Assembly (NCBI GenBank): GCA_017458885.1
Contig: JAFSZQ010000073.1
Coordinates: 1 to 10,034, forward strand
Length of the DNA stretch: 10,034 nt
From: Oscillospiraceae bacterium
GTDB taxonomy: Bacteria; Bacillota; Clostridia; Oscillospirales; Oscillospiraceae
Direction: 5' to 3'
Below the pieces are notes generated by a model. The model was not told the origin of the DNA. It was given only the letters and a program-made list of their open reading frames with translations, and did not search any database. Made by a program: the position numbers and the translations under genes. Of the stretch, positions 8,763 to 10,034 are shown piece after piece. Each line of letters opens with the position of its first letter. Position 1 is the stretch's first letter.

Positions 8763-9740
8763 TCAGCGCCGCCCCCTGTTCTGCCGGTTTTTCGCGTCCT
8801 CGTAGTCCTGATACGCCTTGATGATGCGCTGCACCATCACGTGTCGCACGACGTCCTGATCGCTCAACTCGCAGACGCCGACGCCCTCCACGTTTTTCAG
8901 CACGCGCACCGCCTGCTTGAGCCCCGAGAGCTTGTCCGCCGGCAGGTCGATCTGCGTCGCGTCGCCGGTGATGACCATTTTCGAGCCGAAGCCCATGCGC
9001 GTGAGGAACATCTTCATCTGCTCGCAGGACGTGTTCTGCGCCTCGTCGAGGATGATGAAGCTGTCGTCGAGCGTGCGCCCGCGCATATACGCCAGCGGCG
9101 CGACCTCGATGTTCCCGCGCTCGAGGTATTTGTTGTACGTCTCCGCGCCGAGCATATCGAACAGCGCGTCGTAGAGCGGTCGGAGGTAGGGATCGACCTT
9201 GCTTTGCAGGTCGCCGGGCAGGAAGCCCAGCCGCTCGCCCGCCTCGACCGCGGGGCGCGTGAGGATGATGCGGTTGATCTTGCGCTCGCGGAACGCGGCG
9301 ACCGCCGCCGCGACCGCAAGGTAGGTCTTGCCCATGCCCGCGGGCCCGACGCCGATGGTGACGGCGTTCTCCGCGATGGACCGGACGTAGGTCTTCTGCC
9401 CGATGGTCTTGGGCTTGACGGGGCGGCCCTTGGCGCTGATGCAGATGACGTCCTGCGTCAGCTCGCCGATCTTGTCCTCTTGCCCCGCGCGGGCGAGGGC
9501 GATGACGTAGCGCACGTTCTGCTCGCTGATCGCCTCGCCGCGGTTCGAGAGCGTGAGCAGCGCCGTGAGCGCCTTGGACGCGAGCATGACGTCCTCCGCC
9601 TCGCCATTCACGCGAAGCTCGCCCTCGCGATTGGCGACGGTGACGCCGAACTCGGTCTCGATGAGATGGATGTTCTCGTCGAACGAGCCGAAGAGGTTCA
9701 CCGCCTGCTCGAGGCGTTCGATGCTGATGCGTTGTTCCAT
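8763..9740 (-). CDS. phoH: PhoH family ATPase
   Basis: A 325-residue PhoH-like P-loop ATPase. Its exact biochemical role is unsettled; its conserved linkage to ybeY points to RNA metabolism, and related PhoH2 proteins are RNA helicase/RNase fusions. The N-terminal region (about 1-110) has the KH-like fold expected for the family. The ATPase shows Walker A GPAGMGKT (132-139), the conserved LTRPAVEAGERLGFLPGD (160-177), Walker B FIILDEAQN (228-236) and the VITGD sensor (256-260). The start at 9740 has AGAGGAA six bases upstream. The frame stays open for about 65 codons further upstream but contains no ATG, GTG or TTG, so the annotated start is preferred. It is the first gene of the operon in this window, preceded by the structured element at 9840-10016. 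Confidence 0.96.
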   Translation of the reverse strand: MEQRISIERLEQAVNLFGSFDENIHLIETEFGVTVANREGELRVNGEAEDVMLASKALTALLTLSNRGEAISEQNVRYVIALARAGQEDKIGELTQDVICISAKGRPVKPKTIGQKTYVRSIAENAVTIGVGPAGMGKTYLAVAAAVAAFRERKINRIILTRPAVEAGERLGFLPGDLQSKVDPYLRPLYDALFDMLGAETYNKYLERGNIEVAPLAYMRGRTLDDSFIILDEAQNTSCEQMKMFLTRMGFGSKMVITGDATQIDLPADKLSGLKQAVRVLKNVEGVGVCELSDQDVVRHVMVQRIIKAYQDYEDAKNRQNRGRR

Positions 9741-9811
9741 AGCCGGTTCCTCTTTTGTTGTGATTGGTTTCTTTTGGAGAACGGTTTCAAACTTCCGTAG
9801 AAGAAAGACGC

Positions 9812-9834
9812 CTGCCGACTGCCGTGCTGCCGAC
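9812..9834. repeat. Three short CTGCCG repeats upstream of phoH
   Basis: CTGCCG occurs at 9812, 9819 and 9827, with CTGCCGAC at the first and third positions. It lies between the phoH start and the structured element. It may be part of that element or a binding site; short repeats like this can also arise by chance in GC-rich DNA. Confidence 0.35.
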
Positions 9835-9839
9835 AGGAT

Positions 9840-10016
9840 TTCCGTGTCGTGGCAACGCTGTTTCTCGTAGTCTATTTGACGGTGCGTCTTCGGTCCGCTC
9901 GTCGCTCTTTGGGATATGACGCAAGTCTGGCGTCTCTACCGTTTCCTGCCCAAAGTCGAATAAGGGGTGTCAAATGCCGGCCCGCACAAGCAAAACAGCG
10001 TAGTCCCGACACGGAA
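9840..10016. ncRNA. Candidate structured RNA or palindromic element, unidentified
   Basis: Five perfectly complementary, properly nested segments are present: 9840-9849 with 10007-10016 (10 bp, TTCCGTGTCG); 9855-9863 with 9993-10001 (9 bp, ACGCTGTTT); 9874-9880 with 9969-9975 (7 bp, ATTTGAC); 9907-9913 with 9949-9955 (7 bp, CTTTGGG); and 9918-9922 with 9930-9934 (5 bp, GACGC). The result is a rod-like structure of about 177 bases with internal loops and a terminal branched region. A further GTGCG/CGCAC match (9882-9886 with 9983-9987) would form a pseudoknot. The stretch is less GC-rich than the genes and has no convincing coding frame. Strand is undecided: on the minus strand it would be a leader about 100 bases ahead of phoH. 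I do not recognise a known riboswitch, RNase P RNA, tmRNA, SRP RNA or T-box. A dispersed palindromic repeat (MITE-like) is the main alternative. The element may extend past the window edge. Confidence 0.45.
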
Positions 10017-10034
10017 CCCCAAACGTCATAGAAA

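Follow-up and report, generated by a model that had tools for sequence, protein, structure and literature searches.

What is the non-coding DNA directly upstream of phoH at the end of contig JAFSZQ010000073.1, from an Oscillospiraceae bacterium (assembly GCA_017458885.1)? The window is the whole stretch that was analysed, 10,034 nucleotides long. The original prediction described five perfect, collinear, nested stems at 9840-10016 and offered three readings: a cis-acting leader of the phoH operon, an independent RNA, or a short dispersed element. The DNA in question is a worn copy of a palindromic element that is dispersed in the genome. The predicted reading as a dispersed repeat is thus upheld, but the mirror-repeat ends of the element, which lie at or beyond the borders of the predicted region, were missed.

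All five stems are present as exact complements where they were predicted (Table 1). Their nested total of 38 bp is reached by none of 150 dinucleotide shuffles (mean 16.1, sd 4.2), in keeping with the claim that such a set is improbable by chance. A repeat search of the window joins stems 1 and 2 into a single pair of 24-nt arms with 88% complementarity. The folding energy of 9770-10034 departs only slightly from that of shuffles, with z -2.0 for DNA (4 of 200 shuffles as good), -1.6 for RNA of the minus strand (13 of 200) and -1.2 for RNA of the plus strand (28 of 200). A known RNA family is rejected, as predicted: at gathering score, Rfam has no match in the window. Ten loci with copies give four sub-threshold Rfam matches, the best with an E value of 0.00017.

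Table 1. Features of the window copy of the element and the neighbouring gene
Feature	Position	Strand	Length	Basis
phoH, neighbour, outside the element	8763-9740	-		PF02562
Worn left end: terminal hairpin remnant and linker GGTTTCAAACTTCC (9783-9796)	9764-9796	+		comparison with other ends; outer border 9764 estimated by eye
Purine arm GTAGAAGAAAG, in the third-strand position of intact ends	9797-9807	+		end comparison, register test
Inner arm	9808-9839	+		read by eye
Inner palindrome of the element (nested stems)	9840-10016	.		stem tests and alignment
Stem 1	9840-9849/10007-10016		10 bp	exact complement
Stem 2	9855-9863/9993-10001		9 bp	exact complement
Stem 3	9874-9880/9969-9975		7 bp	exact complement
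Stem 4	9907-9913/9949-9955		7 bp	exact complement
Stem 5	9918-9922/9930-9934		5 bp	exact complement
Internal block	9856-9916	+		alignment of nine copies
Second conserved block GTCGAATAAGGGGT	9955-9968	+		alignment of nine copies
Element continuation, cut by the contig end	10017-10034	+		comparison with other copies

Positions 9780-10034 give 24 BLAST matches at 15 places, the window included, in the organism's own draft genome (922,923 bp in 154 contigs, 64% complete), and homologues beyond the phoH locus are also found in relatives, all within the same genus. The first 32 bases of the element recur in inverted orientation at the far end of other copies; the element therefore has inverted ends. 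Its borders are wider than predicted. The stems lie inside, but the element runs from about 9764 to beyond the contig end at 10034, and the right arm and right hairpin of this copy fall outside the window. At its left end the pyrimidine/purine (Y/R) hairpin of intact copies is lost. The inner-arm position, where several other copies have a GC-rich hairpin and then a run of T, is degenerate here (by eye).

Nine own-genome copies were aligned over 269 columns. Pairing is kept in 89% of cells in stem 1, where four pairs have two-sided changes, in 91% in stem 2 and in 67% in stem 3; stem 4 is paired in 88% of cells, with near-zero variation against which pairing can be tested, and stem 5 in just 23%. 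The predicted stems are thus borne out for 1 and 2 and in part for 3, stem 4 hardly varies, and stem 5 fails. Most of the fold is therefore a property of the family, and the innermost hairpin belongs to the window copy alone. The internal block is nearly invariant in these nine copies, which differ elsewhere; its roughly 60 bases are not accounted for by the stems, and may reflect a protein site or recent conversion. Three open reading frames are listed here: 105 aa ending at 9870, 437 aa ending at 9800 and antisense over phoH, and 60 aa at 9849-10031. Aligned copies differ across them by indels and by ATG/ACG changes, so that none of the three is taken as a gene and protein coding through the region is rejected.

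A full copy used as query matches 11 of 60 genomes, the organism's own included, all of the same genus; among the matches listed outside its own genome, nearly all span the ends of the element and not the interior. The end pattern (at most one mismatch) is present in 5 of 400 family genomes from 106 genera, and all five are among the nine members of the genus drawn. The 14-base linker (at most one mismatch) occurs at least six times in 10 of 18 genus genomes, including one (G015) counted by pattern alone with six matches, and zero to three times in the other eight. In a named collection, 28 of 29 matching stretches come from MAGs labelled Oscillospiraceae, Ruminococcaceae or Clostridia, and those with a stated source are from sheep rumen or roe deer abomasum; the 29th, from Pseudovibrio, has no hairpin. 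The element is restricted, in the genomes searched, to one genus of uncultured gut Oscillospiraceae. A phage source was rejected on the basis of IMG/VR, which has no exact match to one end pattern.

The neighbourhood of phoH decides the first of the predicted readings. A conserved cis-acting leader of the phoH operon is suggested by the position of the element in the window, directly upstream of the gene. It is refuted by the congeners, all of them other species: a phoH start is readable in 14 (the match is partial or weak in two more genomes and absent from one), and the 420 bases upstream hold no such element in any of the 14. These bases read as the end of a gene which stops shortly before phoH, apparently yqfD; in the one congener tested it is YqfD (PF06898). 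Element copies elsewhere adjoin other genes. The probability of a leader function is accordingly close to nil. Given the empty upstream region in the 14 congeners, the window copy is most likely an insertion between yqfD and phoH; yqfD has no match in the organism's own draft, which is 64% complete.

Intact copies have a constant order: hairpin, linker, purine arm, nested inner palindrome, pyrimidine arm, linker, hairpin. The usual end consists of [C/T]TGA[A/C]ACC, a Y tract, a loop, an R tract, GGTTTCA[G/A], ACTTCC and the purine arm, and the arm is the R tract read backwards, as in GAAAGAGAAGAAACGGTTTCAGACTTCCAAAGAAGAGAAAG and AAAAGGAAAGAACCGTTTTCAGACTTCCAAAGAAAGGAAAA. A Y/R-stem hairpin followed by an arm which mirrors its purine strand is the layout of an intrastrand DNA triplex, and a Y stem, an R stem and a mirrored third strand of at least 6 nt follow one another on one strand, which is the structure that characterises PIT repeats. 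A mirror repeat beside its own hairpin has one standard structural meaning, namely an intrastrand triplex. Just outside the hairpin there is a loose consensus, roughly GGGGRRCGKTTC.

The match between arm and hairpin was measured on 101 clean ends among 120 end-like sequences listed; the other 19 were set aside for want of a clean hairpin and include the window copy, several good mirrors which exceed the mismatch limit, and five matches which are not copies of this element, two in L088 (a Pseudovibrio record) and three in coding DNA (L135, L162, L165). Arm and reversed R strand are identical in 94.8% of cells at one register and in 37-50% at seven others, and 94 of the 101 ends score 8 or 9 of 9. 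The commonest end types make up 25, 17 and 17 of these ends, and types recur in several species. The 71 distinct R/arm pairs match in 647 of 710 cells against 472 (sd 12) for shuffled arms, with none of 5000 shuffles reaching the observed value; T-A:A and C-G:G triplets both occur in number in each of columns 3, 5, 6, 7 and 8, and between 3 and 6 of the 71 pairs per column depart from them. The match survives collapse to one row per R type, where 14 all-purine types give 120 of 126 cells (shuffled 90.2, sd 4.4; none of 20,000 as high), the remaining 6 of 20 R types being left out for a non-purine letter in the nine positions of R or arm.

Read as a direct repeat, the 14 collapsed types match in 74 of 126 cells. 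An origin of the arm by direct repetition or by Watson-Crick copying is rejected, since direct offsets give an identity of at most 0.65 against 0.93 for the mirror (71 pairs); mean longest runs are 7.6 for the direct reading and 9.9 for the mirror. Over a T-A pair in column 1, the third-strand base is T or A in 54 of 55 cells. This use of T and A fits the antiparallel motif, in which both read A-T, and is suggestive only.

When 460 kb of fetched loci are scanned for any hairpin with a mirror arm, 84 distinct places emerge, against none in one mononucleotide shuffle; the loci were chosen for the repeat and include overlaps, and 84 is not a genome-wide rate. The usual linker is present at 76 places and GGTGTCGCCCGCC at six; two places have neither, and one of these has a third linker. 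The two further linker sequences keep the same hairpin and arm geometry. For 21 two-ended elements the arm was scored over 9 positions against both hairpins, and it agrees at 8.3 with its own and at 6.4 with that of the opposite end; arm-arm pairing therefore does not explain the mirror match. The left end of L090 has an arm score of 6/9 in this comparison. Arms with at least 8 of 9 purines were required here and in the counts of gene settings, outer consensus, shared loci and covariation.

Several smaller features of the ends can be noted. A G.T or A.C wobble frequently occupies a single lower-stem position in many ends, and its 5' base tends to recur as the arm base that follows TTCC. TGACACC often takes the place of TGAAACC in the lower stem, giving a C.T mismatch. 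Beyond the end of some copies (L004, L021, L055, L059) a further hairpin, or half of one, stands in tandem, which looks like a duplication of the outer hairpin. In L003-L006, L008 and L009 a GC-rich hairpin and T run inside the left arm resemble an intrinsic terminator reading inward (by eye).

Elements occupy the same intergenic slots in different species, which allows changes to be counted locus by locus. Judged by flanking DNA, there are 17 shared locus ends at 12 loci, each in two to four species; one group from a single genome (L027/L062) was excluded from the between-species count, which leaves 17 groups and 31 pairs. In these pairs R and arm both differ in 54 cells, only R in 4 and only the arm in 5; a further 197 cells are unchanged, and 19 that contain a non-purine were set aside. 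Coupled changes number 54 and uncoupled ones 9. One pair per group gives 29 coupled, 7 uncoupled and 103 unchanged cells, with 14 set aside. The slot L021/L109/L145/L158 has four hairpin sequences in four species, with three distinct 9-mers, each a 9/9 mirror. A score of 8 or 9 of 9 is reached by 36 of the 40 shared-locus ends, but not by L002+ (5/9), L021- (7), L063- (7) and L118- (2, hairpin lost). L002+ and L118-, with the left end of L090, break the mirror rule and are counted against a triplex.

L057 and L090, which share a locus, have interiors that are 95% identical and end modules that differ in type; in these modules the hairpin has changed jointly with its arm. Whole end modules may be exchanged in this way, and the safe count of independent changes is therefore nearer the number of types than that of cells; the coupled changes stand for fewer events than cells, and part of the match is inherited.

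Interiors were compared for 21 hand-picked ends at 8 shared loci. The median score is 63 bits for different loci within a genome, 20 bits for the same locus in different species and 19 bits for all other pairs; a score of at least 40 bits is reached by 25 of 34, 5 of 20 and 12 of 156 pairs, respectively. Flanks behave in the opposite manner; their resemblance follows the locus and not the genome. The slot is therefore shared and most of its content is replaced, through either re-insertion at favoured sites or intragenomic conversion. Inner modules are mosaic: in L013 (G000:C47) an inverted GTCGAATAAGGGG module stands in place of the conserved block, and L017, L021, L011 and L014 have a different inner module of about 80 bases.

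Among 18 fully flanked elements, nine lie between convergent and nine between tandem genes, and none lies in a divergent setting. Settings were assigned by a codon score trained on eight genes of the window, for elements with 200-420 bp between linkers; 4 of 22 elements were left out for short flanks, and some of the elements counted represent one locus in two species. The absence of divergent settings would also be explained by an RNA-level or terminator role. No target duplication was seen by eye among the copies compared. Larger elements, with 745-1163 bp between linkers and with open reading frames, occur in congeners at L046:539-1526, L026:1539-2702, L033:785-1530 and L109:1488-2379. No transposase was seen among the reading frames listed in three of them; the one run through Pfam, in L026, encodes a small HTH protein. 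The larger element of L046/L055 encodes a zinc-ribbon-like membrane protein (by eye), which may be cargo or a gene caught between two elements. The many copies at shared loci suggest long residence rather than frequent movement.

Intrastrand triplex repeats are themselves already known in bacteria as boxC/PIT/TM_ECO (Holder et al. 2015, PMC4666352), where the purine motif (antiparallel third strand, A.A-T and G.G-C) and the pyrimidine motif are defined. TM_ECO, the best studied natural triplex of this kind, is described there as G/C-rich and highly conserved, is reported from proteobacteria, and has 9-nt stems and a second loop of 3 nt. Its triplex is stable in vitro, stable formation in vivo is unsupported, no function is assigned, and no association with mobile elements was found by the authors. 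The present element resembles these repeats, as that paper presents them, in being dispersed and intergenic, in having one strand which can fold as a Y-R-R triplex, and in that some TM_ECO copies form inverted pairs. It does not have the TM_ECO/boxC pattern. Its stems are A/T-rich purine tracts of many types, the hairpin is extended by a lower stem of roughly 8 bp and separated from the third strand by a 5-6 nt linker, two triplex-like ends bound one element, and the host also differs. The motif search in PMC4666352 allowed loops of 1-6 nt and would miss the layout of these ends. The main text of that paper contains no occurrence of covari- or compensatory. GTAG/CGTC-tagged repeats (PMC3733652) are likewise palindromic, multi-copy and intergenic, and GTAG stands beside the hairpin in many ends here; theirs, however, are described as units of 20-40 bp, and mirror, Clostridi- and Ruminococc- do not occur in the main text. 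No paper on the present repeats was found among the open-licence papers listed, most subscription papers being outside the scope of the search, and no description of a palindromic element with triplex-like ends and a covarying third strand was found in this literature.

From copy to copy the three strands of the intact ends change in step, which is why these ends look built as triplexes. Each end, on the strand that leads into the element, would fold as an intrastrand triplex: the Y and R strands of the hairpin pair, and the arm would lie antiparallel along the R strand, giving A.A-T and G.G-C triplets (purine motif). The other strand of the same end would form a pyrimidine-motif triplex. A putative trans-acting factor would recognise the shape of the end in single-stranded DNA rather than its sequence, and the Y/R sequence would thus be free to change provided that all three strands change together. 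The element would move, spread and be homogenised within each genome. A decayed, non-coding, transposon-like palindromic element with ends foldable as triplexes, their shape recognised in trans, is on balance the favoured account, by a modest degree of confidence. The fuller proposal, a family with ends recognised as DNA triple helices, in which the fold and not the sequence is selected and the slots are repeatedly renewed across species, is more tentative and falls a little short of being probable. Against the triplex account, A/T-rich purine triplexes are weaker than G-rich ones, and no mover was found beyond a Y1 transposase fragment in 1 of 18 genus genomes.

The element has the terminal inverted repeats, multiple copies and lack of coding sequence of a MITE, and it shares with Correia, RUP and ERIC, which are bacterial MITEs, a short, non-coding, intergenic form with inverted ends. 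Unlike these, its ends are mosaic, left differs from right, and no parent transposon or target duplication was seen. An ordinary MITE, with mirror-like ends that owe their form to purine-rich composition or to the exchange of a few end cassettes and form no triplex, would agree with the dominance of a few end types and their recurrence in several species. Against this reading stand the fixed register, the loss of the match in shuffled arms even at one row per type, and the poorer fit of the direct-repeat reading. A mirror, moreover, cannot be copied by a polymerase; the match therefore calls for selection, even with later exchange of whole modules, and cassette exchange leaves the origin of the first matched types unexplained. 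An ordinary MITE is thus improbable. Movement as REP/REPIN elements by a Y1 (RAYT) transposase is considerably less probable again. REPINs, described as inverted-order REP doublets (Bertels and Rainey 2011, PMC3116915), are extragenic, have two inverted hairpin units around a spacer and are regarded as non-autonomous mobile DNA; intergenic hairpins in inverted pairs, and GTAG beside the hairpin in many ends, are found here too. REPINs go with RAYT transposases, however, and PF01797 was found in 1 of 18 genus genomes, as a fragment of 45 positions, though the control matches 5 of 14 known genomes; RAYT as the mover is unsupported. CCAAA or CCAAAG replaces GTAG in many ends, the unit is several times the length of a REP, and a mirror third strand is unmentioned in the abstract of PMC3116915.

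A role in RNA is the second most likely account, after shape recognition of the single-stranded ends by a putative factor, though it is still unlikely. A pyrimidine-motif RNA triple helix, or a strong 3' hairpin, would protect, end or insulate mRNAs, and the element would be kept as useful at gene ends. This would suit the convergent and tandem settings (nine of each, none divergent), the slots common to several species, and the GC-rich hairpin with a T run just within the left end of several copies (by eye). The purine-motif side, however, is not possible as an RNA triplex by present knowledge, and each strand has one; the window has no promoter-like sites and one terminator-like site (0.7 expected), and Rfam is without a match.

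The role of natural intramolecular DNA triplexes in bacteria is a long-standing question. In this genus, a third strand which tracks its duplex through many changes points to selection on the three-stranded fold itself, and the natural variants of the ends are ready material for testing triplex formation and recognition.
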